From: Streptomyces sp. NBC_01335
GTDB taxonomy: Bacteria > Actinomycetota > Actinomycetes > Streptomycetales > Streptomycetaceae
Direction: 5' to 3'
Length of the DNA: 64,000 bases
Assembly: GCF_035953295.1 (NCBI RefSeq)
Contig: NZ_CP108370.1
Coordinates: forward strand, 496,001 to 560,000
Shown here: one piece after another, positions 27,473 to 52,405 of the stretch
Layout of the letters: every line of letters starts with the position of its first letter
How positions within the stretch are numbered: the first letter of the stretch is position 1
Program-made: the position numbers and the translations under genes
Notes under the pieces: generated by a model
Database searches by the model: none
What the model saw: only the letters and a program-made list of their open reading frames with translations
Told to the model about the DNA's origin: nothing

Positions 27473-27762
27473 CCCCACCGGTCCGGTCGCGGCGGGAGCT
27501 TCCGCCGTCCCGCGGCGCCTCCCCCGCCCCACGGTCTCCCGACGGCCCGCCGCTCAACGGCCCCGGCCCGTCGCCCTCCTGGCAGTGACGACCACCGCCC
27601 CGCTCCGTCGTGTCCGACTCCGCGGGCGGACGGGCGCTGCCTTCCCGGGCAACTGACCACCGGTCACGTTCCGCCGGTCACCCTCCGCCGGTCACCCACG
27701 GATGTCCGCTGTCCTCAGCCGCCCTCCGCCGGAGCCGGCCGCCCCCTGCCGTCCTCTCCCGA
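27473..27762. other. Intergenic region between leader peptide and secreted protein gene
   Basis: 290 bases, very GC-rich, with several short GC stems (for example around 27492-27509) but no convincing gene, promoter or operator. It could be the 5' untranslated region controlled by the leader peptide. Confidence 0.35.
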
Positions 27763-29269: not shown

Positions 29270-32200
29270 TCACGACGCCGCCGGCACCCCCCGTGGCGCC
29301 GGCAGGAACCCCGTCCCCCGGAAGTACGTGAGATAGCGGGTCACCACCTCGTCGGTGAGCGGCGGCAGGTGGACGCCGAGGGCGGCCACCGCCTCGGCGG
29401 TGCGGCCGGAGTCGAAGCGGCGCTGGTCCGTCGCCCCTCCCTCCGGCCGCTCGCCGTCGCCGAGGAACAGCTGGGCCGCGTTGTCCGGCTGGGCCGCGAC
29501 GCGGGCCTGCCACTGCTCGGCGGGGAGGGTGCGCACCTCGTGGCCGAGGCGGGCGGCCGCCTCGAAGACCCGGTCGAGGCCGGGGGCGTCCGGGTTGGTG
29601 TGGTGGTACGTCCCGTCGGCCCCTGCGTCCGCGAGGGTGAGCGCCACCACCGCCGCGCTGACGTGGTCGACCGGCACCCAGTCGGTCGAGCCGTGCGGCA
29701 GGTCCGGTACCGCCTCCGCCTGCAGGCACCCCTTGATCAGCTGCCAGAGCAGGTCCCTTTCCTGGCAGGCACCGGTCGCGGTGTCGCCGCTGATGCGGCC
29801 CGGGCGGTGGACGGCCACCGGGAGCCCGCGTTCCCTGGCGAGGCCGACGAGCCCCTCGGCGACCCACTTGCTCCGCGTGTAGCCGTCCGGCAGCCGGGTC
29901 GCCGGGCCGGTCGGGCTGGTCTCGGTGAGGGTGACGGCGGCGGGGGCGTAGACGCCGGTGGTCGAGACGTGGTGCATCCCGGGTGAGGCGGAGTCGGCGA
30001 GCAGGCGCAGCAGTTCCTCGGTTCCGGCGACGTTGGCCGCGCGCAGGTCCGCGTACGGGGCGGCGAAGTTGACGTGTGCGCCGTTGTGCAGGACGGGTCC
30101 GAGGCGGCGTACCAGGGCGGTCCGGTCCTCGGGCGACAGGCCGAGGCCGGGGGCGGCGAGGTCGCCGGGGACGGGGTGGATCAGCTCGGCGTACCGGGGG
30201 TGCCAGAGCCCGTAGTGCTCCAGGTTGGTGCGCAGCCGGTGCGCGGCGCGGGGTGCGTCCTCGGCGCGCACCAGGCAGTCGACCGGGCCGCCGGTGGTTT
30301 CGAGCAGGTCGCGCAGGAGGTAGGCGCCGAGGAAGCCGGAGGCGCCGGTCAGCAGGGGGCGGGCGGACGGCCGGGCGGGGCGGCGGGCGGGTGCGGGGAC
30401 CGGGGCGTTCCGGCCGGCGCCGGTGATGTCCGGGGCGAGGCGGACCTCGGCGGCGAGGTCCGGTCCCGCGGTGGTCTCCGGCGGGCTCTGTTCTCCGGCC
30501 GCGCTTCCCAGGAGGCGGTCCACCCCTTCGACCGTGGGTGCCGCGAACAGGGCGCGCAGGGAGGGGCGTCGGCCGCAGCGCTCCTCGATCCGCTGGGCGA
30601 GGGTCACCGCGAGCAGGGAGTGGCCGCCCAGGGCGAAGAAGTCGTCGCTGACGCCGACCCCGGCCACGCCGAGGGTCTCCGCGAACGCCTCGCACAGGGC
30701 CCGCTCGCGGTCCGTGCGCGGGGAGCGGCCGCCGGCCGGCGCGGCCCGGTCGGGGGCGGGCAGGGCCCGCCGGTCGGTCTTGCCGTTGGGGGTCAGCGGC
30801 AGCGCGTCGAGGCGTACGAAGGCGGCGGGGACCATGTGGGCGGGCAGGGCGGCGGCGAGGTGGGCGCGCAGCTCGGACGCGTCCGGTCCGGCCGTGCCGT
30901 CGGCCGGGACGGTGTACGCGACGAGGCGCCGGTCGCCGGGCCGGTCCTCGCGGACGACGGCGCAGGCCGCCGCCACGCCGGGCAGGGCGGTGAGCACGGC
31001 CTCGATCTCGCCGGGTTCGATGCGGAAGCCGCGGAGCTTGACCTGGTCGTCCACGCGGGAGACGTAGACGAGTTCACCGTGCCCGCCGCCCGGTCCGCCG
31101 CCGGTGGTCCAGCGGACCAGGTCGCCGGTGCGGTACATCCGGCCCCCCGCGGGGTCGGCCGGGTCGGCCACGAAGCGGGTCGCGGTGAGGCCGGGCCTGC
31201 CGTGGTAGCCGCGGGCGACTCCCGCGCCGGAGACGTACAGCTCACCGACGACGCCGGGGGGCACGGGGGCCAGCCGGTCGTCCAGGACGTGGACCCGGGT
31301 GCCGTCGACGGGGACGCCGATGGGCACCGTGCGGTCGGGGGCGAGCGGTCCGTCCGGGTGCTGGGCGGCGCTCATGGTCGCGCAGACGGTGGTCTCGGTG
31401 GGGCCGTAGGCGTTGACGAGGGAGCGGCCGGCCGCCCAGTCGCGCACCAGGGCCGGGGTGCACGCCTCGCCCGCGAGGACCAGGGTGGTTCCGGTGGGCA
31501 GCGAGCCTGCGGGCATCACCGCGAGTGCGGCGGGCGGCAGCGTGAGGTGGGTGGCGCCGCGTTCGCGGACGGTGGCGGCGAGGGCGGGACCGGGCAGCAG
31601 GGCGTCGCGTTCGTCGATCTCCAGGCAGGCCCCGGAGAGCAGGGCCATGCAGAGTTCCCAGAACGCGGCGTCGAAGCTGACGGACGCCATGTGCAGCACC
31701 CGGCTGTCCGGGGTGACGCGCAGCCGTTCCCGCTGGGCCCTGGCCATGGCGCCGGCGCCCCGGTGGGTGACCACGACGCCCTTGGGCCGGCCCGTGGAGC
31801 CGGAGGTGTAGATGACGTACGCGGGGTGCTCCGGGAGCGGGCGGCGGGCCGGGGCGGCACCGTCGCCGGGGTCGTCGGGGTCGGTGGCGTACAGGTGGGG
31901 CACCGGGGTGGCGGGGAGCCGTCGGTGGAGGGCGAGGGTGGTCAGGAGCAGGCGCGGGTCGGCGTCTTCGAGCATGTAGGAGAGGCGGTCGGCCGGGTAG
32001 TCGGGGTCGAGCGGTATGTACGCCGCCCCCGCCTTGAGGACGCCGAGGAGACCGACGAGGAGGTCGTGGGTGCGGGGCAGGGCGACCGCCACCCGGTCCT
32101 CGGGGCCGATGCCGAGGGCGGTGAGCCGGCGTGCGAGGGCGTCGGCGCGGGCGTCGAGCGCGGCGTACGTGAGGGTGGTGCGGGCGTCGCGGACGGCGGG

Positions 32201-35200
32201 CGCGTCCGGGGTGCGCCGGGCCCACTCCTCGTAGAGCGAGGGGACGGTGGAGCCGGGCAGGTCGTCCGCGGGGCCGGTGCCCCAGGCGGTGAGGCGGACG
32301 CGCTCGGGTGCGGTGAGCACGTCGTACGTGCTCAGCGGGCGGTCCGGGTCGGTGGTGACGGCGTCGAGCAGCAGGACGAGCCGTTCGGCGAGGCCGTGCA
32401 CGGTCGCGGCGTCGAAGAGTTCCGTCGCGTAGTCGACGGTGGCCCGCATGCCGTCGGGCACCCCGCCGGCGTCGTGGGTCTCGGTGAGGGTGAAGGAGAG
32501 GTCGAACTTGCTCACGGCCGTGCCGAGGGGCACGGGTGTGACGGTGAGGCCGGGCAGGTCGACGGGGGCGGCGGGGGTGTGGTTCTGGAGGACGAGCATG
32601 GTCTGGAAGAGGGGGTGGTGGGTCTGCGAGCGGGCGGGGTTGAGGAGTTCGACCAGCCGCTCGAAGGGCATGTCCTGGTGCGCGTACGCCGAGAGGTCGA
32701 ACTCCTTGACCCGTGCGAGGAGTTCGAGGAACGTCGGGTCGCCCGAGAGGTCCGTGCGCAGCACGAGGGTGTTGACGAAGAAGCCGACGAGGTCGGTGGC
32801 CGCCTCGTCGGTGCGGCCGGCGACGGCCGTGCCGAGCGGGATGTCGTCCCCGGCGCCGTGGCGGGAGAGCGCGAGCGACAGGGCCGCCTGGAGCACCATG
32901 AAGACGGTGCTGCCGGTGGCGCGGGCGAGTTCGCCGACCCGACGTGCGGTGGCGGGGCCGAGGGTGAAGGTGTGGGTGGCGCCGGTGTGCCGGGCGACGG
33001 GCGGGCGCGGGCGGTCCCAGGGCAGCTCGACGACCTCCGGCAGTCCTTCCAACGCCGTTTTCCAGTGCGTGAGCTGACGGTTCAACAGGCCGTCCGTGCC
33101 GTCGTTCCCGCCGTCGAGCAGGCGGCGCTGCCAGAGGGCGTGGTCCGCGTAGTCCACGCGGAGCTCCGTCCAGGCGGGGGCCTCGGCGCGCAGGCGTGCG
33201 CGGTAGGCGGCGGCGAGGTCGCGGGCGAAGGGCGCCAGGGAGGAACCGTCGGCCGCGATGTGGTGGATCACCAGGACCAGGACGTGCGCTTCCTCGGCGA
33301 GACGCAGCAGGGTCGCCCGGACGGGGAGGCGGTGTTCGATGTCGATCGGCTCGGTCGCGCACGCGCGGACGCGGTCGGCGAGCTTCTCCTCGTCGGCGGC
33401 CTCCACGACGAGCGGGAGCCGCACGTCACCGGGGTCGGTGATGTGCTGGCACGGTGCGCCGCCGCGCTCCGGGAAGACGGTGCGCAGGGAGGCGTGCCGG
33501 GTGACGACGTCGCGCAGCGCCCGGCGCAGGGCCTCGGTGTCGAGCGGCCCGTCGAGGCGTACGGCGAAGGGGATGTTGTACGTGGCCGAGGGGCCTTCGA
33601 GCCGGTGGAGGAACCACAGACGCTGCTGGGCGTAGGAGAGCGGGAGCGTCGCGGGGCGTTCCTGCGGGACGAGGGCGGGGCGGGCGGGGCGGGCGGCGTG
33701 TTCCAGGGCGGTGGCGAGCGTGGCGACGGTGGGGTTCTCGAAGAGGGTGCGAATGTCCGCCTCGGTCTCCAGCGCGGTGCGGACCCGGCCGACGAGTCGG
33801 GTGGCGAGCAGTGAATGGCCGCCCAGTGAGAAGAAGTTGTCGTCGGCCGCGACGCGGTCCACGCCCAGTACGTCGGCGAAGAGCCCGGCGAGGATCTCCT
33901 CGTGGGCGCCGCGCGGTGGCCGTCCGGCCGGTGCGGTGGGCCGGGCGGGCGCGGGCAGGGCCTGCCGGTCGATTTTGCCGTTGGGGGTGAGCGGGAGGGC
34001 GTCGAGGGGCTGGATCGCGGCCGGCACCATGGAGGCGGGCAGATGGCGGCCGACGTGCGCGGCGAGCAGGACTGGGTCCGGGGTGTGGCCGGGGGCGGGT
34101 ACGACGTAGGCGGTGAGGGTGCGGTCGCCGGGCAGGTCCTCGCGGACCAGGACGCAGGCGGCGCGTACGGAGGGATCGGTGCGGAGCACCGCCTCGATCT
34201 CGGCGGGTTCGATGCGGTGGCCGCGCAGTTTGATCTGCTGGTCCGCCCGCGCCAGGTAGCGCACGGCACCGTCCGGGTCGCGGCGCACGAGGTCGCCGGT
34301 GCGGTACATCCGCGTCCCGTCCCCGGCGAAGGGGTCGGCGACGAACCGGGTGGCGGTGGGGCCGGGGCGGCCGAGGTAGCCGCGTGCGACGCCGGGCCCC
34401 GCGAGGTACAACTCCCCTTCGGCGCCGGGTGGTACGGGGCGCAGGTCCGGGTCGAGCACGTGGGCGCGCATGCCGTCGAGCGGCCGGCCGATGGGGGGCG
34501 CCCCGTCGGGTGCGTCGCCGGGGCGGACGTGGTGCCGGGTGGCGAAGGTGGTGGTCTCGGTCGGGCCGTAGACGTGGAGGACGGCGGTGCCGGGGTGGGC
34601 GGCGGCCAGCCGCTGGAAGACGCCGGGGGCGGCGGCCTCGCCACCCGCGGCGACCAGCCGCAGCAGGCCGAGGGCGCCGGGGTCGGTGTCGGCGACGACG
34701 TTGAACAGCGCGGTGGTCAGGAACGCCGCCGTCACGCCGTGGCGGGCCACCAGGTCGCGGATCGCGGCGGGCTGGAGGGCCCCGTCGGGGGCGAGGACGA
34801 CGCGGCCCCCATGGAGGAGGGGCACCCAGATCTCGAAGGTGGAGGCGTCGAAGGCGTACGCCGAGTGCATGAGGACGGCGTCGGCGGCGCCGTCGCCCCA
34901 GGTCCGGTCGGCAGCCAACGCGGCGATGTCGGCGTGGGTGACGCCGACGCCCTTGGGCAGTCCGGTGGAGCCGGAGGTGAACATCACGTAGGCGAGTCGG
35001 GCTCCGCCTCCCACGGAGAGGAGGGCGTCGGAGGGGAGCACGCCCGGGGCGTCCGGGCCTCCGTGCAGCACCCGGCCGGCCGGGTCCACGGTCACCACCG
35101 TCGCGCCGGGCGGGAGTTGCCGCACCCAGGGGTGCGCGCGGGTGGCCTCGTCGACGACGAGGACGCGCGGGGCGGACACCTCCACGACCCGGGCGAGGCG

Positions 35201-36964
35201 TTCGGCGGGCCAGCGCGGGTCGAGGGGTACGTAGGCGGCGCCCGCGCGCAGGGCCGCGAGGGAGGCGGTGACCTGGGCGGTCGAGCGGCCCATGAGAATG
35301 CCGACGCCCCGCTCCGTACCGGCTCCGAGTCCGGTGAGCGCCCCGGCCAGTTCCTCGGACAGGTGGAGGAGCCCGCCGTACGTGAGCTCCTCGCCGGCGC
35401 CGGTGACGGCGACCCGGTCCGGCTGCCGGGCGGCGATGCGCGCCACGGCCTCCGGGACACTCGCCCCCGTTGTTCCGGGCGGGAGTTGGGCGCCCCGCCC
35501 CTGTGCCAGCAGTGCCTCCCGCTCGCCGTCCAGGAGGACGGACACCGCGTCGACGCGCAGGTCGAGCCCCTGGGCCATCGTGGTCAGCAGCCGGCGCATC
35601 CGGGCGGCGGTGCGGGCCACCTCGTCCCGGCCGAGGACGGCGGCCCGGTGGCCGAAGGTGATACGCAGGGTGTCGCCCGGGGCGATGGTCAGGGTGAGCG
35701 GGTAATGGGCGGCGTCCGTGCCGGTGAAGCCGGTGACGGCGAGGCCGGACAGCCCCCGCCGGGCGGTGCGCAGGGCCTCCGCGTCCAGCGGATAGTTCTC
35801 GAACACCGTGAGGGTGTCGAAGAGTTCGTCCATCCCGGTGACTTCGCGGATCTCGGTCAGCCCCACGAACTGGGCTCCGAGGAGGCGCCCCTGCTCCTCC
35901 TGGAGCCGGGTCAGGAGGGTGGCCAGGGTGTCGTCGGCGGCCGGACGCAGCCGTACCGGCACGGTGTTGATGAACAGCCCGACCATCGACTCCACGCCGG
36001 GGATCTCGGGCGGGCGGCCGGAGACCGTGGTGCCGAACACGATGTCGGCGCGGCCGGTGAGCCGGGTGAGCAGCAGCCCCCAGGCGCCCTGGACCAGGGT
36101 GTTGAGAGTGAGCCGGTGGGCGCGGGCCGTCTCGCGCAGCCGGGTGGTGGTGGCCTCGTCCAGGTCGAGGACGAGCGTCTCGGGAAGCTCGGCGGAGGTC
36201 GGACCGCCCTCGGCGGCGGGCTGTTCACCCTCGGCGGAGGGCCGTTCGCCGGAGAGCCGTTCGCCGGAGAGCCTTTCGCCGGAGGGTCGTTCGCCGGACG
36301 TCGACGCGCCGTGACCGCCGCGCCCGGCGAGCAGGGTCGGCGCCTCGATCCCGGCCAGCGCGGCGCGCCAGGCGTCGAGGGCCTCCGCGCGGTCCTGCTG
36401 GGCCAGCCACGCGAGGTAGCTGCGGTACGGGGCGACCCGGGGCAGCGCGGAGTCGTCGCCCCCGGTCGCGTACAGCTCGAACAACTCCCGTACCAGCAGC
36501 GGCATCGACCAGCCGTCGAGCAGAATGTGATGGGCCGTCATGACGAGGCGGTGGCGGCTCGGTGCGGTGCGCAGCAGGGTGAAGCGCATCAGGGGCGGGG
36601 TGGCGAGGTCGAAGCGTCGGGTGCGGTCGGCGGCGAGGAAGGCGGTGAGACGTTCTTCGGTGGCCGCCGGGCCGTCGGGGCCGGTCAGGTCCACCTCCTC
36701 CAGCGGCACCGGCACCCGGGCGGCGACGGCCTGCACGGGCTCGGGCAGGTCCTCGTGGAGAAAGCCGACCCGGAGGTTGGCGTGCCGCCGCAGCAGGCCG
36801 CCGACGGCGGTGCGCAGGGCGGGAACGTCGGGGGTGCCTTCGAGGTCGAAGACGAACTGAGCGGTGTAGACGTCCACGGCGTGGGAGTCGTACAGCGCGT
36901 GGAAGAGCATGCCTGCCTGCAACGGCGTCAGCGGCAGTACGTCCTCCAGCTGGAACCCGGTCAC
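29270..36964 (-). CDS. Nonribosomal peptide synthetase 2: C-A-T-C-A-T-reductase
   Basis: A 2564-residue protein adding the last two residues and releasing the peptide. Start: GTG 36964 overlapping the TGA of NRPS1 (GTGA), with GGGTGGA upstream. Domains (approximate residues): C5 1-440, of the [15 protein letters not shown] class that follows epimerisation domains, HHILLDGWS near 147; A5 about 490-1000, pocket residues DAFFVAVTF; T5 [11 protein letters not shown] near 1050; C6 1085-1520 with HHIAADGSS near 1236; A6 1560-2070, pocket DAWTVAAVC, matching the Phe code; T6 near 2111; terminal thioester reductase 2200-2564 with TGASGFLG and YTRSK (Y-x-x-x-K type). There is no thioesterase, so the chain should leave as aldehyde (or alcohol). 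A 15-base repeat expands a C5 loop (SGER repeats). Residue numbers were estimated from nucleotide positions. Confidence 0.96.
36241..36300 (-). repeat. In-frame 15-base minisatellite in C5 of NRPS2
   Basis: Four 15-base units encode SGER followed by Pro or Leu; the first two are identical. They fall in the middle of the condensation domain, between the HHxxxDG half and the [15 protein letters not shown] half, so probably in an exposed linker. Confidence 0.85.
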
Positions 36965-39900
36965 TTGCGTCCACCCCACTTGTTCTGCAGTCGGTCGATC
37001 TGGGCCTGGTCCAGCGAGACCAGGGGAAGGTCGGAGGGCGTCCAGCCGCCCGCGTCGGGCCGCTCGGCGTGTTCGGCGAGCGCGCCGAGGGCGCGGGTGA
37101 ACGCGTCGGAGAGGAGTTCCACGGCGTCCTCGGTGAGAAGGCCGGCGGGCCAGGTCCAGCGGGTCACCAGGGTCGGGCCGTCCGGCCCGTCCTCGGTGTG
37201 CGCGTTGATGTCGAGCACGTGGTGGACGGGCATCGCGGGGTCCTGGGCCCGGGGCCCGCCGCCGTCGAGCAGCACCTCCCAGTCGGCGCCGCCGGCCGGG
37301 TCGGCAGGCGTCCGCGCACTCGCGTACCGGCCGAGGTAGTTGAAGCCGATCTGGGGGTCGGGTGCGGCGGCCAGCCGGGGGCCGGTCGTCGCGTTGAGCC
37401 GCCGGAGCATGCCGTAGCCGACTCCGTGGTCGGGGACGGTCCGCAGCTGTTCCTTGACGCGCTTGAGGGCGCGTTCGGCGAGGGCGGCGTCGAAGCGCCC
37501 GGGGGCGCGGGGGTCGAGAGGTCCGGGGTCGAGGCGGACCGGGTAGAGGCTGGTGAACCAGCCGACGGTACGGGACAGGTCGAGGCGCTCGTCGATCTGC
37601 TCCCGGCCGTGTCCCTCCAGGTCGATCAGGACGCCCGTGCCCCCGGGGCCGGTTGCGCCGGAGGCGCGTTCGGCGCGCCAGGCGCTCACGGCGAGGGCCA
37701 GACCGGTGAGCAGCACGTCGTCCACTCCGGCGTGGAAGGCGGCTGGGACGGTGCTGAGGAGGGGCTCGGTGCGGGCGGCGGGCAGCCGGGTGACGAGGGT
37801 GCGCGTGCGGCCCGCGGTGTCCAGGGCGGGGTCGAGCGGGCGGGGTCCCAGCTGCGGGTCGGGGGTGCTCGACATCGCTTCCCAGAGCGGGAGTTCGGCC
37901 TCGCGCGCGGGGTCGTTCGCCTGGGCGGCGAGGAGGTGCGCCCAGTGCCGGTAGGAGGTGGTGGCGGCGGGGAGCCCTGCCGTGTCTCCCACCCTCCCCT
38001 TGGGGCCTCCGGGGCCTCCGGGGCCTCCGGGGTCTCCGGGGTCTCCGGGGCCTCCGGTGACGGCCCGCCAGGCGGTGGCCAGGTCGGCGGCGAGGATGCG
38101 CCAGGAGACCGCGTCGACGGCGAGATGGTGGACGACGAGGAGCAGCCGTCCTCGGGCGCCGGGTCCGGCGTCGCACCAGACGGCCTCCACGACGTTCCCG
38201 TCCGCGGGGCTGAGCCGCCCGCGGGCCTCCTCGCCCGCCTCGGTGACGGCGGCCCGGACGGCATCGGCGGCAAGTCCCGTGATGTCGATCCGGGTGAACC
38301 GGTCGCGGGCGGGGACGGAGCCCGTCGGCAGCACGTCGAGGACGGGCTCGCCTCCGGCCGGGCGGCCGACCCGGAGGCGGAGCATGTCGTGGTGGTCGAT
38401 GAGGAGTTGGAGGGCGACGGTCAGCGTGTCGGTACCGGCTCCGGGCGGTGTGCGCAGGACTCCGGACTGGTTGTAGCCGTCCGTCGTGCCGGGGCGCTCC
38501 AGGAACCAGGCGACGATGGGGGTAGCCGGCAGGGTGCCGGTGCCCCGCTCGGTGGGCGCGGGGGTGGCCCGGCCGGGCGCGGCGCCCTGGTCGAGCGTGG
38601 TGGACGCGGCGGCGATGGCCTCGGGGGTGCGGTGGACGAAGACGTCGCGGGGGGTGACCCTCAGGCCGGCCTCGCGGACCCGGCTGACGAGCTGGATGGA
38701 GAGGATGCTGTCGCCGCCGAGGGCGAAGAAGTCGTCGTCGGTGCGGACGGCGGGTGCGCGCAGGACGGCGGCGAACACCTCGCAGAGCACCTCTTCCTCC
38801 TTGGTGCGCGGCCGGTCGCCCGGGCGCTCGGCGGTGGGCCGGGCGGGGGCGGGCAGGGCGCGCCGGTCGGTCTTGCCGTTGGGCAGCAGCGGCAGCGCGT
38901 CCAGGGTCACGAAGACGGCGGGCACCATGTACGGCGGCAGCGACTCGGCGAGGCGGGCGCGGAGTTCGCGCTCCGCCGGGGCCGGGGAGCCGCCGCGCGG
39001 GTCGGGGACGGTGTACGCGACCAGGCGGCGCTCGCCGGGCCGGTCCTCACGGACCAGGACGCAGGCGGTGGCGAGGGTGTCGAGCGCGGTGAGGGCGGCC
39101 TCGATCTCGCCCGGTTCGATGCGGAATCCGTTGACCTTGACCTGGTCGTCGGCGCGCCCGACGTGGGTGAGCAGGCCGTCGGCGTCCCGCCGGACGAGGT
39201 CTCCGGTGCGGTACATCCGGCTTCCGGCGGGGCCGTAGGGGTCGGCGACGAACCGTGCGGCGGTCAGGCCGGGGCGCCCCAGGTAGCCGCGGGCGAGTCC
39301 GCCGCCCGCGAGGTGGAGTTCCCCGGTGACGCCGGTGGGCACCGGTCGCAGACCGGCGTCGAGGACGTAGGCGCGGGTGTTGTCGACCGGGTGGCCGAGC
39401 GGCACGCTCCCCTCCCCCGCCGGTCCGTCGGCTCCGGCGGACCCGTGGTGGTGGGCGGTGGCGTCGATGGTGGCCTCGGTCGGCCCGTAGAGGTTGTGCA
39501 CCTCGGTCCGCCACTCCCGGCCGACGCGTTCCGCCAGTGCCCGGGGCAGCGGTTCGCCGCCGCACAGGACGGCCCGCAGTGAGTCGGGCACCGCGTCCGG
39601 GCCGGTCTCGGTGAGGACGACGGAGAGGTGGGAGGGCACGAACTGGGCGAGGGTCACGCCCTCTGCGCGCATCCGGGAGAGCAGCCCGGCGGGGTCGTGG
39701 TTGAGGGCGGGCGGCACGGGACAGGTGGAGCCGCCGTGCAGGAGCGGCAGCCAGGTCTCCCAGACCGAGGCGTCGAAGCTCGGCGAGGTACGGGCGAGGA
39801 CCCGGTCGTCGCCGCTGAGCCCGAGGTGGTCCGCCATCCACGCCATGTGGTTGGTGAGGGAGGCGTGGGTGACGACCACGCCCTTGGGGCGGCCGGTGGA

Positions 39901-42900
39901 GCCCGAGGTGTAGATGACGTACGCGGCGTCGCGCGGGTCGGGCCCGGCGCCGGTCGGCGCGGCGCGCCCGGTGGACCAGGCGGCCCGGTCGTCGAGTGCG
40001 AGCCGGGGCAGGGCGGGACCGGGGCGTCCGGCACGGTCTCCGTGCCCCTCGCGGTCGCCGTGCCCCTCGCGGTCGCCGTGTCCCGCGCGATCTCCGTGTC
40101 CCGCGCGATCGCCGTGGGTTCCCCGGGCGCCGTGGGCGTCCCGGGCGCCATGGGTGAGGAGCAGCGCCGGGCGGGCGTCGTCGAGCATGTGGGCGATGCG
40201 TGCCTCGGGGTACTCCAGGTCGACGGGCAGATAGGCGGCCCCGGCCTTGGTGACCGCCAGCATCGCGAGAACCTGGTCGGTGGTGCCTTCCAGCGCCAGG
40301 GCGACCAGATCGCCGCGGCCGATGCCCCGGTCGTGCAGATGGTGGGCCAAGTCGTCGGATAGCAGGTCGAGTTCGGCGAAGGTGATCCCGTCGCCGCCGT
40401 CGCGTACGGCGATCGCCCCGGGGGTACGGGCGGCCTGCGCGCGGAACGCCCCGGGTGCGGTGCCGGCGGCCGAGGGGCGGGTGGGGCCGTGGGCGACGCG
40501 GTCCAGGCTCCGCCGCTCGTCCGGCTCCAGCACATCCACGGCGTGGACGCGCCGGCCGGGGTCGGTGGCGAGCGTGGCGAGGAGGCGGGTCAGCCGGGCG
40601 GCCAGGGTGTGGGCGGTGGCGGGGACGAAGAGTTCGGTGGAGAACTCCAGGACGCCCCGGAGGCCGGCGGGCCGGCCGGACGCGTCGTAGGTCTCGGTGA
40701 AGGTGAAGGTCAGGTCGAACTTGCTGATGCCGGTCTGCACGGGTTGCTCGGTCACCGTCAGCCCGGGCAGGTCGATGGCGGCGTCGCCCTGGTTCTGGAG
40801 GACCAGCATGGTCTGGAAGAGCGGGTGGTGGTTCTGGGCGCGGACGGGGCTGAGGGCGTCCACCAGCCGCTCGAAGGGCAGGTCCTGGTGGGCGTAGGCG
40901 GCCAGGTCGAAGTCGCGTACCCGGTCGACGACTTCGCCGAAGGTGGGGTCGCCGCTCAGATCGGCGCGCAGCACCAGGGTGTTGACGAAGAACCCGACCA
41001 GGTCGTCGAGCGCCTCGTCGGTGCGGCCGGCGACCGCGGTGCCCAGCGGGATGTCCTCACCCGCGCCGTGGCGGGAGAGGAGGACCGACAGGGCGGCCTG
41101 GAGGACCATGAAGAGGCTGCTGCCCCGGGTCCGGGCGAGATCGGCGAGCGCCCGGTGGGTGTCGGGGCCGACGGTGAAGGGGTGGGCGTCGCCGCAGTGG
41201 GCGGGCACGGCGGGGCGCGGCCGGTCGCAGGGCAGTTCCAGCAAATCGGGGGCGCCGGCCAGGGCGGTTCGCCAGAAGGCGAGTTGGCGGGCGGCCTGGC
41301 TGGAGGGGTCGTCCTCCTCGCCGAGCAGGGCGCGCTGCCAGAGGGTGTAGTCGGCGTACTGGACGGCGAGTTCGCTCCAGCCCGGCTCCCCGCCCTCGAT
41401 CCGTGCCCGGTACGCGTCGCCCAGGTCGCGGGCGAGCGGGGCGAGGGACCAGCCGTCACCGGCGATGTGGTGCACCACCAGCACCAGGACGTGGGCTTCG
41501 GGCGCGAGCCTCATCAGCCGGGCGCGCACGGGGAGTTCGGCGCTCACGTCGAAGGGGTGCGTCACCTCGGCGGTGAGCACGTCGCCGAGGTGGGCGGGGT
41601 CGGTGTCGCGGGGCGTCAGGTCGAGGTCGGCACCGGTGGCGTCGAGTACCACCTGCCGGGCGATGCCGTCGGTGTCGGGGAAGACGGTGCGCAGGCTCTC
41701 GTGGCGCTCGACCACGTCCGCGAGGGCGTTCTCCAGGGCGCCGGTGTCGAGCGGGCCGTCCAGGCGGAGCACCAGCGGCACGTTGTACGTGGCGCTGGGG
41801 CCCTCCAGCCGCCCGAGGAACCAGAGGCGCTGCTGCGCGAAGGAGAGCGGCAGCGGATCGGGGCGCTTCCCGGCTCTCTCCAGGGGTCTTCTGGCCCGCT
41901 CGGCCCCGTCCAGCGCCGCGGCGAGGGCGGCCGGGGTGGAGTGCTCGAAGAGCGCCTTGACGGGGACCTCCACGCCGAGCACGCTCCGGATGCGGGCCAC
42001 GAGGCGGGTGGCGAGCAGGGAGTGGCCGCCGAGGGCGAAGAAGTCGCCTTCGGCGTCGAGGCCGTCGAGCCCGAGCACGTCGGCGAAGAGTCCGCAGAGG
42101 ATTTCCGCGCGGGCACTGCGGGCCGTACCGCCGCCGGTCCTCCGGCTCTGCTCCCCGTGGACGGGTGCGGGAAGGCCGCGCCGGTCCACCTTGCCGTTGA
42201 CGGTCAGCGGCAGCGCGTCGAGCAGCACGAACGCGGAGGGCACCATGTACGCGGGCAGGGACCGGCCGAGCTCCTGGGCGAGGTCGGCGGGCGCGGGGAG
42301 CGCCCGGGCGGTGGGCACCACGTAGGCGACGAGGCGCCGGTCGCCGGGGGTGTCCTCGCGGACGACGGCGAAGGAGTCGGCGACCCCCTCGCAGCGAGCC
42401 AGGACGGATTCGATCTCGCCGAGTTCGATGCGGTAGCCGCGCAGCTTCACCTGTCCGTCCGCGCGGTCGACGTAGGCGATGTGCCCGTCCCGGGTCCAGC
42501 GGACGAGGTCGCCGGTGCGGTACATCCGGCTTCCGGCGGGGCCGAACGGGTCCGCGACGAAGCGGCCGGCGGTCAGGGCGGGCTGCCCGGTGTAGCCGCG
42601 GGAGACTCCGCGCCCGGCGAGGTACAGCTCGCCCACGACACCGGGGGCGACCGGGCCGAGGGAGCCGTCGAGCACGTACAGCCGCATGCCGTCCAGCGGG
42701 CGGCCGATGGGCGGCGGTCCGGCCGGGAGGCCGGCGGTCACGTCGTGGCGGGTGGCGAAGGTGGTGGTCTCGGTCGGCCCGTAGACGTGGAGGACGCGCA
42801 GACCGGGCGTGGTGCCGGCGACGCGCTGCATGGCGTCCGGGGAGGCGAGCTCGCCTCCGGCGCACAGGAGGCGGAGCCCCCGGAAGGCCCCCGGAGCGGT

Positions 42901-45900
42901 CTCGGCGATCACGTTGAAGAGCGCCGTCGTCAGGAAGACGGCGGTCACCCCGTGTTCGCGGACGGCGTCGCCGAGGGCGCGGGCCTCCAGAACACCGTCC
43001 GGTGCGACGACGATCTTTCCGCCGTGCAGGAGCGGGGCCCAGATCTCGAAGGTGGAGGCGTCGAAGACGTACGCCGAGTGCATCAGCACCGCGTCGGCGG
43101 CGCCCTCGCGCCAGGCGGAGTCCTCGGTGAGCGCGGCCACGTCGGCGTGGGTGACGCCGACGCCCTTGGGCAGGCCGGTGGAGCCGGAGGTGAACATGGT
43201 GTACGCGAGGGTGTGCGGCCCCGGTACGGCGGCCGGGCGGCCCGGACGTTCGGGGCCGCCGCGCAGGACCCTGCCGAGCCGGTCCACGACCAGGACCGGC
43301 AGCCGGCCGGCGGTGGCGGTCACCCAGGGGGAGGCGAGGGCGGCCTCGTCGACGACGAGGGCCCGCAACGACGCCGTTGCGGCGACCTGTTCGAGCCGCT
43401 CGTCGGGCCAGCGCGCGTCCATGGGGACGTAGCTGCCCGCCGCGCGGACCGCGCCGAGCGAGGCCGTCACCACGGCGGGCGACCGGGCGAGCAGGACGCC
43501 GACACCGCGCTCGGGTCCGACGCCGAGCCCGGCGAGCGCCCCGGCGAGGTCGGCGGAGAGCGCGTCGAGCGCGGCGTAGCTGAGGGTGGTGGCGCCGTCG
43601 GTGACGGCGGGGTGGTCAGGGGTGCGGAGCGCCTGGGCCGCGAAGAGGGCGGGCAGGGTGGTGTCCGGTGCGGGCGCGCCGAGCGGGCGGCCGGTGCCCC
43701 AGCGGGTGACCCGGGTGTGTTCGTCGGCCGTCAGCAGGTCGTGGCCGGCGAGCGGCCGGCCGGGGTCGGCGGCCACCTGCTCCAGAAGGCGGAGGAGCCG
43801 GGCGGCGAGGGTTTCGACGGTGTCCCGGTCGAAGAGGGCGGTGGCGTACTCGATCCCGGCCGAGAGGCCGCCGCCGTCGCGCTCCTCGGTGAACGCGAAG
43901 GTGAGGTCGAACTTGCTCAGGCCGTTGTGGACGATCCGGTCCTCCACGGTGAGGCCGGGGAGTTCGGGGCGGACGGTCTCCTGGTTCTGGAGGACCAGCA
44001 TGGTCTGGAAGAGCGGGTGGTGGTCGCGCGCCCGGACGGGGTTGAGGCTCTCCACCAGCCGTTCGAAGGGCACGTCCTGGTTCCCGTACGCGGCGAGATC
44101 GAACTCCCGCACCCGGACCAGGAGTTCCCGGAAGCTCGGGCTGCCCGACAGGTCCGTGCGCAGGACCAGGGTGTTGACGAAGAACCCGACCAGGTCCTCC
44201 AGCGCCTCGTCGGTGCGTCCGGCGACGGGGGTGCCGAGCGGGATGTCGTCGCCCGCGCCGTGCCGGTGCAGCAGGGCGGCCACCGCCGCCTGGAGCACCA
44301 TGAAGAGGCTGCTTCCCGACTCCCGCGCCAACAGCAGGAGTTGTGCGTGGAGCACAGGTGGTACGTCGAAGGCGTGGACGTCTCCGCGCGGGTCGGCGGT
44401 GACCGGGCGGGGCCGGTCCAGCGGCAGGTCGACCAGGCCGGGCAGCCCCGCGAGGGCGGTGTGCCAGTGCTCCAGCTGCCGCCCGAGCGCGCTCCCGGGT
44501 GCGGTGTCGTCGCCCAGGGCCGCGTGCTGCCAGAGGGTGTAGTCGGCGTACTGGAGCACGGGGCCCGTCGCCCACGCGGGCTCCCGTCCGTCGAGCCGGT
44601 CCCGGTACGCCTCGCCCAGGTGGCGGGCGAGCGGGGCGAGGGACCAGCCGTCGCCGGCGATGTGGTGCACCACCAGCACCAGGACGTGGTGGTCGGGGGC
44701 GGCGCGCAGCAGCTGGGCGCGCAGCGGGAGGTCGGCGGTGACGTCGAACGGCAGGCGTACGGCGTCGAAGACGGCCTCCTCCAGGTCGGCGGGGGCCACG
44801 TCCACGACCGGAAGTTCGGGGGTGGCCCCGTCCGCTCCGACGATCAACTGGTGTGGTGTGCCGCGCTGTTCGGGGAAGAGGGTGCGCAGCGACTCGTGGC
44901 GCCCGACGACGTCCCCGAGGGCGGCGCGGAGCGCCTCCGTGTCCGGGGTGCCGTGGAGTTCGAGGACGAGCGGGATGTTGTAGGTGGAGCTGGGTCCTTC
45001 GAGCCGGTTGAGGAACCACAGCCGCCGCTGGGCGAAGGAGAGCGGCAGCGGATCGGGCCGCCGCTCGGCCGGTACCACGGGAGGGCGGGTCCGGGCCGCC
45101 GGGTCGACGGCGCGGGCCAGGCCCGCGACGGTCGGGTGCTCGAAGAGGGTGCGTACGGCGATCTCCGCGCCCAGTACCGCGCGGACGCGGCTCACCACGC
45201 GCATGGCGAGGAGCGAGTGGCCGCCGAGGTCGAAGAAGCTGCTGTGCGGGCCGACCCGGGGCCGGTCCAGCACGTCGGCGAAGATCCCGGCGAGCAGCTC
45301 CTCCCGGAGGCTGAGCCGTCCCGGTGCGGCCGGTACGCCGGTCTCCGATTCGGGTTCGGGCAGGGCGCGCCGGTCCACCTTGCCGTTGGGCAGCAGGGGC
45401 AGGGCGTCCAGCACGACGACGGCGGAGGGCACCATGTGGTGCGGGAGGGCCTCGGCGAGGCCGTCGCGCAGGGCGACGGGGCGTACGGCGGGGTCGTCGG
45501 TCACGGCGTAGGCGACGAGGCGGCGCCGGCCGGGGGCGTCCTCGCGGATCACCGCGCAGGCGCCGGTGACGCCGGGGTTCGCCAGGAGCGCGGCTTCCAC
45601 CTCGCCCAACTCGACGCGGAATCCACGGATTTTGACCTGGTCGTCGGCGCGGGACTGGTAGTCGAGGAGCCCGTGTCCGTTCCATCGCACGAGGTCGCCG
45701 GTCCGGTACATGCGGGTGCCGTCGGCGGTGAAGGGGTCGGCGACGAAGCGTGCGGCGGTCAGACCGGGCCGGTGCAGGTAGCCCCGGGCGAGGTTGGGCC
45801 CGGAGAGGTACAACTCCCCGGTGACGCCCGGCGGTACGGGGCGCAGCCGCCCGTCGAGGACGTACGCGCGCATGGTGTCCACGGGTCGGCCGATCGGGAC

Positions 45901-48900
45901 GGTTTCGGCCGGGGAGACTGCCGGGGAGGCGGCCGGGGTGCTGCCCTCGCGGAGCGCGGCGGCCGGGGTGGGGCCCTCGCGGTGCGCGGTCGCGTCGATG
46001 GTCGCCTCGGTGGGGCCGTACAGGTTGTGCGCTTCGGCGCCCCAGCGGACGGCGATCTCGTCGGCGAGGGCGCGCGGCAGGGGTTCGCCGCCGCAGAGCA
46101 CGGCACGCAGCCGGGGCAGTGGCGCCCGGTGGGCCGCCTCGGCGAGGACGTGGGTCAGGTGCGAGGGCACGAACTGGGCGACGGTGATGTCGAACCGGCC
46201 CATCAAGGCGACGAGTTCGGCGGGTTCCCGGTTGGCCCGGGGCGGCAGGACGCAGACTTCGGCGCCGTTCATCAGCGGGAGCCACAGCTCCCACACGGAG
46301 GCGTCGAAGCTGGTGGAGGTGCGGGCGAGGACCCGGTCCTCGCCGGTGAGGTCCAGGTGGTCCGCCAGCCACGCCATGTGGTTGGTGAGCGCGCCGTGGG
46401 TCACGACCACTCCCTTGGGGCGGCCGGTGGAGCCGGAGGTGTAGATGACGTACGCCGGGTCGTCCGGGTGGGGCGCGTACGGGGTGAGCGGGTCGGTCCG
46501 GTCCGCCGGTGCGTCGAGGGCGAGCCAGGGCAGGTCGACCGGGGGCAGCGACGCACGGGTGCCGGTGGTGGTGAGCAGCAGGACCGGCCGGGCGTCGTCG
46601 AGCATGTGGCGGATGCGGGCCGCCGGGTACTCCGGGTCGACGGGTACGTAGGCGGCTCCGGCCCGCAGCACGGCCAGCATGGCGACGACGGTGTGGACGG
46701 AGGGCGGCGCGGCGATGGCCACCCGGTCCTCGCGGCCCGCGCCCCGCTCGCGCAGGGTGTGGGCGAGGGCGTCGGCGCGGGCGTCGAGCTCCGCGTAGGT
46801 GAGGCTGGTCAGTTCGTCGCGGACGGCGACCGCGCCGGGGGTGCGCGCGGCCTGCTCGCGGACCGCCTCGGGGGCGGTGAGGGCGGGCAACGGCCGCTTC
46901 CTGCCCAGGCCTTGGGCGAGGATTCGGTCCCGCTCGGCCGTTCCGAGCGGGTCGAGGTCCCGGACCGGGCGGTCGGGATCGGCGACGGCGAGGGTGAGCA
47001 CGCGGGCGAACCGGGCGCTCAGGCCGTGGGCGGTGGCGGCGTCGAAGAGGTCGGTGGCGTACTCCAGATAGCCTCCGATCCCGGCGAACTCGCCTTCGGA
47101 GCGGTCGAGTTCGGTCAGGGAGAACGTCAGGTCGAACTTGCTGATCCCGGTGTGACGGGACCGGTCCCGGGTGGTGATGCCGGGCAGGTCCAGTTCGGTC
47201 CGCCGCTGGTTCTGGAGGACCAGCATGGTCTGGAAGAGCGGGTGGTGGCCGCCGGAGCGCTCGGGGTTGACGGCCTCCACGATCCGCTCGAAGGGGAGGT
47301 CGCCGTGACCGAAGGCGGAGATGTCGAACTCCCGCACGCGTTCGAGGAGTTCGCGGAAGGTCGGGTCACCGGAGAGGTCCGTGCGCAGCACGACGGTGTT
47401 GACGAAGAACCCGACGAGGTCGCCGAGGGCTTCGTCGGAGCGGCCCGCCGCGGCCGTGCCCAGCGGGATGTCGGTGCCCGCTCCGTGGGCGTGCAGCGTC
47501 ACCGCCAGCGCCGCCTGGAGCACCATGAACGGGGTGCACCCCGCCGCCCGGGCGAGCCGGACGAGCGCGGCGTGCTCGGGCGCGGGGAGCGCGAAGGGGA
47601 CGGCGTCGCCCCGGTGGCTGGGGACGGCGGGGCGCGGCCGGTCGAGGGGCAGGTCGAGCAGGTCAGGAGCGCCGCGCAGCGCCTCCCGCCAGTGGGCGAG
47701 CTGGATCGCGGCCAGGCTCTCCGGGTCGGTGTCGTCGCCGAGCAGCCGGCGCTGCCAGAGGGTGTAGTCGGCGTACTGCACCGGCAGCGCGGGCCAGTCG
47801 GGGGCGCCGGTGCCCCCGGTCCTGGCGCGGTAGGCGGCGCCGAGGTCGCGGACGAGGGGGGCGAGGGACCAGCCGTCGGCGACGACGTGGTGGAGGACGA
47901 GGACCAGGAGGTGGTGGTCCGGGGCCTCCTGGAGCAGGTGGGCGCGGACGGCGAGGTCGCCGGTGAGGTCGAAGGGCTCGGCGACCAGCCGCCGGACCGT
48001 CTCCCCCGCCCAGGCTCCGGCGGCGCCGGTCACTCCGGCCGCTCCGGAAGCTCCGGCACCGGCTTCCCCGGCCGGGGGCCGCCGGACGACGAGCGGGACC
48101 AGCTCCGCCGCGGTGGCCGCGTCGAGGATGTCCTGACGCGGTACGCCGTCGTGCTCGGCGAAGACGGTGCGCAGGCTCTCGTGCCGGGCGACCACGTCGG
48201 CCAGCGCGCCCCGCAGGGCCCCCGTGTCGAGCGGGCCGTCGAGCTCCAGGACGAGCGGGACGGTGTACGTGTCGCCGGGGCCCTCCGCCCGGTTGAGGAA
48301 CCACAGGCGCTGCTGCGCGTAGGAGAGCGGCACCGCCTCGGGCCGCCGCTGCGGCGTGAGGGCGGGCCGGGCGGAACCGGCCGTGTCGAGGACGGCGGCG
48401 AGCGAGGCGACGGTGGGGTGGTCGAAGAGGGTACGCAGCCCGAGTTCGGCGCCCAGGGCGGCGCGCACCCGGCCGGTGAGGCGGGTGGCGAGCAGCGAAT
48501 GACCGCCCAGGGAGAAGAAGTTGTCGTCGGCGCCGACGGCGGCGACGCCCAGGACGTCGGCGAACAGGCCGGCCAGCACCTCCTCGTACGCGGTGCGCGG
48601 GGCGCGCCCCGTGGTGGCCGCGGCGGGGGGTGCGGGCAGGGCGCGGCGGTCGACCTTGCCGTTGGGGTTCAGCGGAAGCGCGTCGAGCGTCACGAACACG
48701 GAGGGCACCATGTACGCGGGCAGGGCGCGGCCCACCCGGCGGGCGAGCGCGGTGTCGTCCGGGCGGGTGCCGGTGGCGGGCACGACGTAGGCGACGAGCC
48801 GGCGGTCGCCGGGTATGTCCTCGCGCACCAGGACGCTGACCGCCACCACACCCGGGTCGGCGAGCAGCGTGCCCTCGATCTCGGCGGGTTCGATGCGGTA

Positions 48901-51621
48901 TCCGCGCAGCTTGACCTGCCCGTCCGCGCGTCCGACGTACTCGATCTCGCCGCGCGCGGTCCACCGGACGAGGTCCCCGGTGCGGTACATGCGGGCCCCG
49001 TGCGGACCGTGCGGGTCGGCGACGAACCGGCCGGCGGTCAGCGCGGGGCGGCCCCGGTAGCCGCGTGCCACGCCACGCCCCGACACGTACAGCTCCCCCA
49101 CCACGCCGGGCGGCACCAGGGCGAGGTCGCCGTCGAGGACGTGGAGCCGCGTCCCGTCGAGCGGGCGGCCGATGGGCGGTACTCCGCCCGCGTCGGCGGC
49201 GACCCGGTGGCGGGCGGCGAAGGTGGTGGTCTCGGTGGGCCCGTACACGTGAAGGACCTGGGTGCGGGGTGCGGCGGCGGCCACCCGCCGCATGAGGTCC
49301 GGCGTGGCGGCCTCGCCGCCCGCGGCGACCAGCCGCAGCCCGGCGAAGGCCGCCGGGTCGGCCTCGGCCACCACGTTGAACAGGGCGGTGGTGAGGAAGA
49401 GCGCGGTGACTCCGTACCGGTCGACCAGCCCGGTGAGGACGGGCGCCTCCAGGACGCCCGGGGGTGCGACGACCACCCTCCCGCCGCGCAGGAGCGGAGC
49501 CCAGATCTCGAAGGTGGAGGCGTCGAAGACGTACGCCGAGTGCAGCAGCACCGCGTCGCACGCCCCGTCCCGCCAGGCGGAGTCGGCGGTCAGCGCGAGG
49601 ACGTCCGCGTGGGTGACGCCGACGCCCTTGGGCAGGCCGGTGGAGCCGGAGGTGAACATCACATAGGCGAGCCGGTCGGCGTGCGTCACGTCCGGCAGCC
49701 GTCCGGGACGCGGCGGGGCGCCGCGCAGCACCCGGCCGAGGGCGTCGACGACGACGACCGGCAGGGCGGCCGCGGTCACCTTCACCCAGTTCTGCCCGGC
49801 GGCGGCCTCGTCGACCACCAGGGCACGGACCCCGGCGACGCCCGCGACGCGCCCGAGGCGCTCCTGGGGCCAGGTGGCGTCCATCGGTACGTACGCGGCG
49901 CCCGCGCCGACCACGCCGAGGGTCGCGGCCACCACCGCGGCGGAGCGGTCCACCAGGACACCGACCCCGTCCTCGGCGGCGAGCCCCCAGCCCGCCAGCG
50001 CTGCGGAGATCTCCGCCGCGTGGTGGGCCAGCTCCCGGTAGGTCTGCGTGACGGCACCGTCCACCACCGCGGGGGCGTCCGGGGTGCGGCGCACCTGCGC
50101 TTCGAAGGCCTGCTGGAGGCTCGTGGCCGGCTCCGGGACCTCCAGGTCGGCGCCCCGGCCATGGGCGAGGAGTTCGGCGGCGGCCTCGGAGTCGAGCAAC
50201 GGCAGCTCGCGCAGGGGGGTTTCGTTGTCCGCGCCGGCGAGGGCCTTCAGGAAGGAGATGACGGCGCGCTGGCTCAGCCGCACGTCCTCGGGGCGGTAGA
50301 GCTCCGGGTTGGCGTCGAATCCGATCAACGGGCCTGTTCCCTCGGAGCGTTCGGAGACGAAGAGAGAGACGTCGTCGACCGGGCCGATGGAGAGCAGGCG
50401 GGATGTGGCGGGGCTGCCGCCGAAGTCGAGGTCGTAGGCGTAACCCATGATGTTGACGACCACGTCCGTCAGGCGTGCCGCGTCGTCGGCCATGTTCAGT
50501 TCGCGGGCGAGCTGTTCGCGGGAGAAGCGCCGATGGCGCAGGGCGCCGCGCATCTCGGCGGCGACGGCGCGGACGAGCGCGCCGACCGTCATGTCGGGGG
50601 TGATCTCCAGCCGCAGCGGCAGGATGTTGGCGGTCATGCCGACGATGTGCCGCAGCCCGCCGTGGCGGCCGTTGGAGGCGAGGCCGACGACGACGTCCCG
50701 GGTGCCGGTGACCCGGCCGACGTAGGCGGCGACCGCGCTCACCAGGACCGCGGACCAGGTGGTGCGGTTGGCGGCGGCGAGCCGGCGCAGGTCGTCGAGG
50801 ACGGTGACGGGCAGGGTCTCCCCGGTGTGCAGGTTCACGCCGTCCGCTCCGGTGGGAGCGGCCGGGGCCGGGGCGTCGGTACGGCGGCGGATGAGCGGCG
50901 TACCGCCCCGTGCGCCCGTCCCGCCGTAAGAGCCCTCCGAACCGTCGGAACCGGTGGCGTCCGCCGCGCGGTCGGCGAACCTGGCGGTCCAGTGGGCCCG
51001 GTCGGCCTCGTACCGGTCGGAGCCGAGGTACGCGGCCTCGTCCGCGAGGAGATCGGTGAGCGGGGCGGGGGGCAGCTCGGCCTCGGCGATGTTCTCGCCG
51101 CGCAGGGCGCGTGCGTAGAGGTCGGCCACCATGCGGGCGAAGACGGCACCGCCGAGGCCGTCGACGACGATGTGGTGGAAGCGGATGTACCAGTAGTGCC
51201 GGCGGGGTCCGAGGCGCAGCAGCACCAGGCTGTGGCGCGGGGCGTCGACCCGGTCGACGGTGGCCATGTCGTCGGCCAGGTAGCGCTCGGCCGCGGCGGC
51301 GGGATCGTCGGTACCGGAGAGGTCGACGACGCGGAACCGGTCGGCGTCCGTCCGGGGAGGCGGCGTGACCCGCTGGCGTACGACACCGTCGTGGACGACG
51401 AACTCGACGTTGAGGCTGTCGCAGAGGGCGACCGCGCGGACGACGGCGGCGGCGAACGTCCCCGCGTCGAGATCGCCCCGGATCTCGAAGCACTCGGCGA
51501 TGTTGAACTTCGGGCTCTCCGGTTCGACCGCTTGGCCGTACCACACACCCTGTTGAGCAACGGTCAGTTCGAAAAGCTCTGCGGGAAGCGAACGAGACGG
51601 GATGGAGTCGTTTTCATGCAT
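36961..51621 (-). CDS. Nonribosomal peptide synthetase 1: C-A-T-C-A-T-C-A-T-C-A-T-E
   Basis: A 4886-residue, four-module NRPS. ATG 51621 follows AAAGGTG; the frame is open further upstream but without NRPS homology there. Domains (approximate residues): C1 1-435, EntF-like, HHIVVDGLG near 154; A1 480-960; T1 near 1040; C2 1095-1535 (HHVVADGWS); A2 1560-2060; T2 near 2135; C3 2190-2625; A3 2650-3130; T3 near 3197; C4 3250-3690; A4 3720-4220; T4 near 4302; E 4370-4870 ([10 protein letters not shown] near 4500, NYLGR near 4760). T4 carries LGGDSI, the form typical before E domains, while the others have LGGHSL. Pocket residues read by eye: A1 DAFFVAVTF, A3 DAFFLAVTF (aliphatic, Val/Ile-like), A2 and A4 DAWQVCLID (closest to a Gln code, Ser possible). 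C1 implies an acyl cap on residue 1. Needs the MbtH protein nearby. Confidence 0.96.
38002..38055 (-). repeat. 9-base repeat in the E domain of NRPS1
   Basis: Six 9-base units (GGGGCCTCC/GGGGTCTCC on the + strand) encode a GGP/GDP collagen-like run a few residues after the [10 protein letters not shown] motif. In frame. Confidence 0.85.
40036..40143 (-). repeat. In-frame 18-base minisatellite in A4 of NRPS1
   Basis: Six 18-base units encode [12 protein letters not shown], with further degenerate copies beyond. The array lies upstream of the [11 protein letters not shown] loop of A4, in the variable linker where A2, otherwise similar, has no such insert. Confidence 0.88.
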
Positions 51622-52186
51622 GCCGGTCGACACCTTTGGGGAGAGATTTCGGGGACGACGGAGAAGGCGCGGAGGAAACCGCCGCACCGGTGTGCACATC
51701 GTCGGCAAAGAGGACCGCCGAAGCGGAAAGAAGAGTCGGCGCACCCCATGGAGAAAGGAATCACCGAGGTCTCGCGCCGGGCGCGTTCATCCGGCGCACA
51801 CCCCGTGACCCCCTTCCACCGAAGCGGACCACGCGATGAATCGCCGACGTTCTCCGAGTGACTCGGAGAATCCGCACGGCGGCACAGGAATGACTTCAGC
51901 CGAGCACGGATCGGATACCGGCCACATCCGGACCGATTTCTTTCGGACAGGGCCGGCTGAGGCCACATGAGTCGCCATGCGGCCTCAACGGACCCCCACG
52001 GACCTCAAGTGACCTCATACGGTCCGAAGAAGGCAAGAATCGATCAGGATGATGGACCGGACCCTGCGCCGAAGCGCCATCCACCCCGACGGGGCGAGGG
52101 TCCGCCCCCGCGCACCGGCGACCGGACCAGAGGTGTCCCGTGATTCGTCGCCCACTCGCCGGGGAGTTCGCGGGTGCGGGTCGGCC
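51622..52186. promoter_or_regulatory. Regulatory region between MbtH gene and NRPS1
   Basis: 565 bases without a gene, unusual inside an NRPS operon, so NRPS1 probably has its own promoter. It contains a 21-base perfect palindrome at 51850-51870 (arms TTCTCCGAG and CTCGGAGAA, 3-base centre). It also has four related heptamers spaced exactly 10 bases at 51981, 51991, 52001 and 52011 (GGCCTCA, GACCCCC, GACCTCA, GACCTCA), and an inverse copy TGAGGCC at 51958-51964. Both elements look like regulator binding sites upstream of NRPS1. Confidence 0.55.
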
Positions 52187-52405
52187 CTACTCGGCCGCCG
52201 CCTCCATCGCCCTCACCAGGCCCGCGGGCCGCATGTCGGTCCAGGCGGCCTCGATCGCGTCCAGACACTCCTGACGCGACCCCTCCGGGCCGACGGCACG
52301 CCAGCCGCCCGGGATCTCCATCCGCGCGGGCCACAGCGAGTACTGACCCTCGTCGTTGACCAGCGCCACGAACCGTCCCGACTCGTCGTCGAAAGGATTG
52401 GTCAC
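52187..52405 (-). CDS. MbtH-like protein
   Basis: A 72-residue MbtH-family protein, the small partner that binds and activates NRPS adenylation domains. The characteristic NDEGQYSLWP, the Trp-rich core (GGWRAVGP, AAWTDMRP) and the length all fit. GTG at 52405 with AGGTGGGGG upstream. Same strand as the two NRPS genes and 565 bases in front of them, so it most likely serves their A domains. Confidence 0.95.
   Translation of the reverse strand: MTNPFDDESGRFVALVNDEGQYSLWPARMEIPGGWRAVGPEGSRQECLDAIEAAWTDMRPAGLVRAMEAAAE

Follow-up and report, generated by a model that had tools for sequence, protein, structure and literature searches.

What does an NRPS assembly line make when it ends in a reductase domain, and is its product a new one? 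The question is raised by a locus in a 64,000-nucleotide stretch of Streptomyces sp. NBC_01335 (positions 496001-560000 of contig NZ_CP108370.1, in a genome of 8.36 Mb). We refer to the whole stretch as the window and count positions from its first nucleotide, unless contig coordinates are indicated. The original prediction, made from the sequence without database searches, had described a six-module line that would produce an N-capped hexapeptide phenylalaninal, and had called for a comparison with the flavopeptins, leaving it open whether the compound is a different one.

Gene organization and domain order

Two overlapping genes on the minus strand were found at 29270..51621, in the place and order originally given. 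NRPS-A (36961..51621, 4886 aa) has its ATG start at 51621 and its stop at 36961, and NRPS-B (29270..36964, 2564 aa) has a GTG start at 36964 and its stop at 29270. The start of NRPS-B and the stop of NRPS-A share 4 bases. By Pfam, NRPS-A contains six Condensation, four AMP-binding and four PP-binding stretches, and NRPS-B contains two of each together with one NAD_binding_4 domain. A motif scan accounts for the six Condensation stretches of NRPS-A as four C domains and one E domain. The resulting module order is C-A-T, C-A-T, C-A-T, C-A-T-E for NRPS-A and C-A-T, C-A-T-R for NRPS-B, exactly as had been proposed. The claimed lack of a thioesterase also held, as Pfam detects none in NRPS-A or NRPS-B. 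By Pfam and NCBIfam, a reductase domain stands in its place at the end of the multimodular line, which is the arrangement of flavopeptin-type systems. Because the assembly line is conserved across more than 100 homologous proteins, it is not a product of chance.

Substrates of the adenylation domains

The pocket codes, read from one alignment per position, are DAFFVAVTF for A1, DAWQVCLID for A2, DAFFLAVTF for A3, DAWQVCLID for A4, DAFFVAVTF for A5 and DAWTVAAVC for A6, and all six are identical to the codes that had earlier been read by eye. The A6 domain, located with its flanks at 30725..32287 on the minus strand, has PDB matches, and its code equals that of DAWTVAAVCK, which the accessible part of a study on lunaemycin predicts to load L-Phe (PMC9866976), in agreement with its earlier designation as a Phe code. 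For Gln, the accessible text of another study gives the codes DAWQFGLIDK (tyrocidine) and DAWQTGLIDK (PMC2866473). A2 and A4 have the same residue as the tyrocidine code at seven of nine positions and differ at two, which fits the view that Gln codes are the closest ones. Similarly, the codes of A1, A3 and A5 coincide at seven of nine positions with DAFFLGVTFK and differ at two; that code belongs to Planktothrix cyanopeptolin modules for Ile or Val, according to the portion of the source available to us (PMC2533009), and the earlier likening to Val/Ile codes is thus upheld. Sequence identity between the A domains defines three groups, with A1, A3 and A5 at 62-68%, A2 and A4 at 58%, and A6 apart at 46-51%. 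The reference codes and the three groups together suggest the sequence X-Gln-X-Gln-X-Phe, where X is aliphatic, so that the alternating X-Z-X-Z-X-Phe pattern of the original prediction finds backing in published Phe, Gln and Ile/Val codes. With agreement at seven of nine pocket positions, the Gln and aliphatic residues are putative assignments.

The same pattern runs through the family, as judged from the best 120 of at least 469 NRPS-A homologs and the best 120 of at least 1490 NRPS-B homologs in a domain search. The rows compared include the window, and for NRPS-B also a database copy of it whose reductase shows 100% identity. Rows in which not all A domains were found (4 of 121 for NRPS-A, 2 of 121 for NRPS-B) were dropped. 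Of the 117 NRPS-A rows that remain, each with four A domains, 116 have DAFF at A1, DAWQ at A2, DAFF or DAYF at A3 and DAWQ at A4; the single outlier, P0242, is off at all four positions and is by its codes unrelated. All 119 NRPS-B rows in which both A domains were found have DAWT at A6. Within the family, the pocket varies most at A5, for which the 14 commonest codes, covering 115 of 119 rows, were compared.

Initiation, epimerization and release

The first C domain of NRPS-A (about 50212..51591, minus strand) has an intact HHIVVDG motif in the motif scan and appears to be of the N-acylating starter type. Its best PDB sequence matches are 7c1k and kin (a C domain from an NRPS module), which we take to be the RzmA starter domain, 4jn3 (CDA synthetase I), ObiF1 and EntF. 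A starter-type domain as best match supports an N-acyl cap, and with it the cap that had been postulated.

Module 4 carries an epimerase domain (about 36961..38560, minus strand), which extends from behind the T domain to the end of the protein and contains the motifs HHxxxDxxSW and NYLG. The former is kept in 120 of the 121 NRPS-A rows, and the exception is a partial protein. The first C domain of NRPS-B (about 35614..36943, minus strand) has the motif LTPLQxGM, typical of C domains that follow an epimerase and accept a D residue, which is consistent with the E domain in module 4. Best PDB matches of this C domain are the C domains of bacitracin, microcystin and surfactin synthetases, followed by PvdL and tyrocidine. 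The strict LTPLQxGM pattern is found in 83 of the 121 NRPS-B rows. The other 38 rows comprise 32 in which LTPLQAGM is followed by H or Y, two (P0065, P0099) that are changed inside the motif, and four (P0031, P0084, P0086, P0103) that begin too late to show it.

The line ends in a thioester reductase domain (29270..30547 with its linker, minus strand), which scores 293.1 bits against the NCBIfam model TIGR01746 (thioester reductase; cut-off 213.35). It has the GxxGxxG motif for NADPH, as GASGFLG, and the Tyr/Lys pair, as YTRSKW; a missing pair had been named beforehand as a point that would refute the prediction. Both residues are kept in all 121 NRPS-B rows, 120 times as YxxSKW and once as YSRTKW. 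The best PDB sequence matches are the PKS reductase 8v1x and then MxaA of the myxalamid system, an alcohol-forming reductase. Both are terminal reductases like the one studied here, but they act on other substrates. Elsewhere in the same genome (651391-652077 of contig NZ_CP108370.1), a second NRPS-like protein, in a 1596-aa frame, has a thioester reductase domain that scores 117.9 bits.

Extent of the locus

An mbtH gene, absent from the original description, lies 565 bases upstream of NRPS-A (52187..52405, minus strand). It has a GTG start and encodes an MbtH-like protein of 72 aa, which matches Pfam PF03621 with 91.3 bits (cut-off 27) and has no NCBIfam match. A tblastn search found mbtH in all 12 upstream regions of relatives at 79-88% identity, and it is probably the first gene of the locus. 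A plus-strand ORF at 52049-52627, seen in 11 of these 12 regions, was rejected as an antisense reading of mbtH. There is no TTA codon in mbtH, NRPS-A or NRPS-B.

The gap between mbtH and NRPS-A is poorly conserved except for the stretch CTCTCCCC(A/G)AAGGTGT at 51622-51645, just before the NRPS-A start, which is nearly invariant in 13 regions, one of them with one deletion. This stretch is, at least in part, the ribosome-binding site. It is longer than a usual ribosome-binding site, and a control element is possible.

Beyond mbtH, the surroundings vary. When the flanking proteins of the window were searched by tblastn against 62 loci, which mostly contain either the upstream or the downstream side, no match in relatives reached 40% identity over at least 40% of the protein, the mbtH stretch excepted; the PKS protein was dropped from this table. 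The protein at 27610 matched only locus L031, which is the window itself. We also compared flank ORFs that passed a codon-composition filter, at 45% identity and 60 residues, in 12 upstream regions (from 12 of the 19 relatives in the genus with a locus of their own) and 15 downstream regions, with the window added to each set. Other neighbors were common only to the pair L057 and L059 among the 13 upstream regions, and only to L009 and L015 among the 16 downstream regions. The downstream set was formed by leaving out L002 (about 1.4 kb of flank), L020 (partial match), the short loci L031-L050, and L016-L019, L021-L028 and L030, whose reductases are at 34-42% identity. The flank regions compared contain no conserved acyl ligase or transporter. 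As the neighbors differ and mbtH is constant, the conserved core therefore consists of mbtH and the two NRPS genes.

Several neighbors in the window had been considered as pathway genes, namely the GH5 cellulase, the unknown at 27610, GNAT, hydrolase, ferritin-like, amidohydrolase and isochorismatase genes, and the smaller genes on the PKS side. All were rejected, as the tblastn search of the 62 loci found none of them in relatives. The GH5 cellulase, which has Fn3 and CBM2 domains, and a following 535-aa ORF (together 25409-29217) are convergent with the NRPS genes; the ORF has a probable signal peptide, judged by eye, and matches no Pfam or NCBIfam family. A probable regulator with helix-turn-helix, NB-ARC-type ATPase domain and TPR repeats is encoded at 12773-15145. 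The edge of a separate type I PKS cluster occupies 1-10577, with a minus-strand PKS (1-6777) that has at least two KS and two AT stretches and runs off the window, a plus-strand crotonyl-CoA carboxylase/reductase (7144-8499) above its NCBIfam cut-off, and a plus-strand fatty-acyl-AMP ligase-like protein (8685-10577) below family cut-offs.

Relatives and the link to flavopeptins

Flavopeptins are peptide aldehydes of Streptomyces sp. NRRL F-6652, produced by an NRPS with a terminal NAD(P)H-dependent reductase, and inhibit the 20S proteasome and cysteine proteases, as stated in the accessible parts of two reviews (PMC8009326, PMC4071589). An excerpt of a further article counts flavopeptin among the acyl-protected aldehydes (PMC10548850). 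The window shares with the flavopeptin NRPS a Streptomyces line ending in a reductase, here predicted to release an aldehyde, a likeness drawn via the reviews and via probable orthologs in S. pratensis.

S. pratensis and [Kitasatospora] papulosa are among the best 120 homologs listed. End to end, NRPS-A is 77.2% identical to S. pratensis P0172 over 4937 columns, and NRPS-B is 77.3% identical to P0052 over 2569 columns and 78.9% identical to P0040 over 2571 columns; the S. pratensis records for NRPS-A and NRPS-B possibly come from different strains. Together with P0170 of papulosa, these proteins are collinear with those of the window over the full length, 77-79% identical and of the same code pattern, but about 21-23% divergent, and the flanking genes differ in the relatives examined. 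The A1, A2, A4 and A6 codes are identical between the window and S. pratensis, whereas A3 is DAFFLAVTF in the window and DAFFVAVTF in P0172, and A5 is DAFFVAVTF in the window and DAFFVSVTF in P0040 and P0052. P0170 differs from the window by Val for Ile once in A2 and by the A3 change of P0172, and in nothing else. In the papulosa genome, the ortholog is the single strong match to the reductase Pfam model, at 217.7 bits; the next match scores 26.6 bits.

In the flavopeptin abstract of Chen et al. from 2013, NRRL F-6652 is reportedly closely related to S. flavogriseus ATCC 33331. NCBI taxonomy equates S. flavogriseus ATCC 33331 with S. pratensis ATCC 33331 and contains no strain named NRRL F-6652. 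At the species level, the window proteins thus have full-length orthologs in the S. flavogriseus/pratensis lineage that share their pocket pattern; no hit bears the strain name ATCC 33331. Since the line is orthologous to the S. pratensis proteins, it is probably of the flavopeptin type and not the source of a different compound, which is the outcome of the comparison that the original prediction had called for. The argument via S. pratensis is strong, but not proof.

The accessible part of a study on ureido tetrapeptide aldehydes (antipain, chymostatin and omicsynin) attributes them to a discrete NRPS line (PMC12783407). A C-terminal reductase makes the aldehyde warhead there, as is likewise predicted here, but our locus encodes two large proteins of several modules each, the line opening with a starter C domain, and would yield an acyl-capped hexapeptide without a ureido cap.

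A reductase match at E 1e-30 or better is present in 227 of 392 Streptomyces genomes, the window's own included. Among the 391 others, no fewer than 20 have the reductase at 73% identity or more, once split over two contigs, and at least three further ones have it at 61-64% identity; thirty named loci have it at 34-78% identity. The line is not new, but a member of a widespread family that very probably makes flavopeptin-type compounds, and within this common family it is a well-preserved, ordinary member. The locus type can also sit on a plasmid: a 608-kb replicon of Streptomyces microflavus (NZ_CP054927.1, 344209-345501) has a reductase at 73.4% identity. The remaining 152 matching plasmid records have reductases below 60% identity.

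Discussion

Our data speak with high confidence for a flavopeptin-type locus, consisting of mbtH, NRPS-A and NRPS-B, that is predicted to make N-acyl-(Val/Ile)-Gln-(Val/Ile)-D-Gln-(Val/Ile)-phenylalaninal. The pocket codes, the starter C domain, the E domain in module 4 and the reductase all support the acyl-aliphatic-Gln-aliphatic-D-Gln-aliphatic-Phe-al originally proposed. From domain order, motifs, pocket codes, MbtH and orthology, which the sequence itself provides, we infer substrates, acyl donor, a two-electron release and a target as follows. The starter C domain would acylate the first aliphatic residue, probably with a fatty acyl from the acyl-CoA or ACP pool of the cell. Modules 1 to 6 would add Val/Ile, Gln, Val/Ile, Gln (epimerized to D), Val/Ile and Phe. 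MbtH would assist the adenylation steps, and the terminal reductase would use NADPH to release the chain as a C-terminal phenylalaninal. The aldehyde may then capture the catalytic residue of a protease or proteasome (Ser, Cys or Thr) in a reversible (thio)hemiacetal.

Other products have to be weighed against this. A line of the same architecture might make a peptide of other residue composition than the published flavopeptins, a reading that overlaps with the flavopeptin-type one. The A3 and A5 codes do differ from those of S. pratensis, and A5 is the pocket that varies most, but all A3 and A5 variants resemble the aliphatic class, the remaining codes are as in S. pratensis, and papulosa P0170 is changed only at A3 and at one A2 position, so that we consider a different composition unlikely. 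Quite unlikely, too, is release of the same peptide as the alcohol phenylalaninol, either by a four-electron reductase or by reduction of the aldehyde through a reductase elsewhere in the cell. R domains can yield aldehydes or alcohols (PMC8949500; likewise the accessible part of PMC12783407), the latter text mentions an alcohol form of omicsynin whose reductase is unknown, and MxaA is the second-best PDB match of our R domain. However, flavopeptin, from the nearest characterized family, is reported as an aldehyde in the portions of PMC8009326, PMC4071589 and PMC8949500 available to us, and the flank regions compared have no conserved gene for a separate aldehyde reductase.

The two ends of the chain could also meet. 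If the first C domain were non-acylating, a free amine would close on the aldehyde to give a cyclic imine, as in aureusimine and the nostocyclopeptides, which come from reductase-terminated lines (PMC8949500), or in koranimine, a cyclic imine NRPS product according to an excerpt of PMC4071589. The intact HHxxxDG motif of this domain and its best matches, which are starter domains, make such a product very improbable. Hardly credible is a siderophore-like peptide with an aryl (dihydroxybenzoyl) cap, which EntF among the matches of the first C domain and an isochorismatase-fold gene at 57986-58648 might suggest. The best NCBIfam match of this gene is a YcaC-type cysteine hydrolase (165.2 bits, below the cut-off of 310), the gene is not found in the loci of relatives, and no aryl-AMP ligase or aryl-carrier model scores above its cut-off among the annotated proteins of the window.

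With the flavopeptin-type phenylalaninal as the preferred product, what looked like an orphan NRPS finds its place in an established class of aldehyde protease inhibitors. The number of Streptomyces genomes with a close reductase indicates that this class is widespread. As the core comprises only mbtH and two genes with near-invariant codes, it lends itself well to experiments on what use the compound is to its producer. The differing neighbors in nearly all relatives compared and the S. microflavus plasmid copy lead us to suggest, tentatively and with considerable doubt, that mbtH and the NRPS genes form a self-sufficient unit, mobile within the genus and almost fixed in its pocket code, one peptide aldehyde being kept by selection. 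If this were true, the compound would be a common Streptomyces inhibitor of proteases or the proteasome, serving either an internal, developmental purpose or an ecological one.
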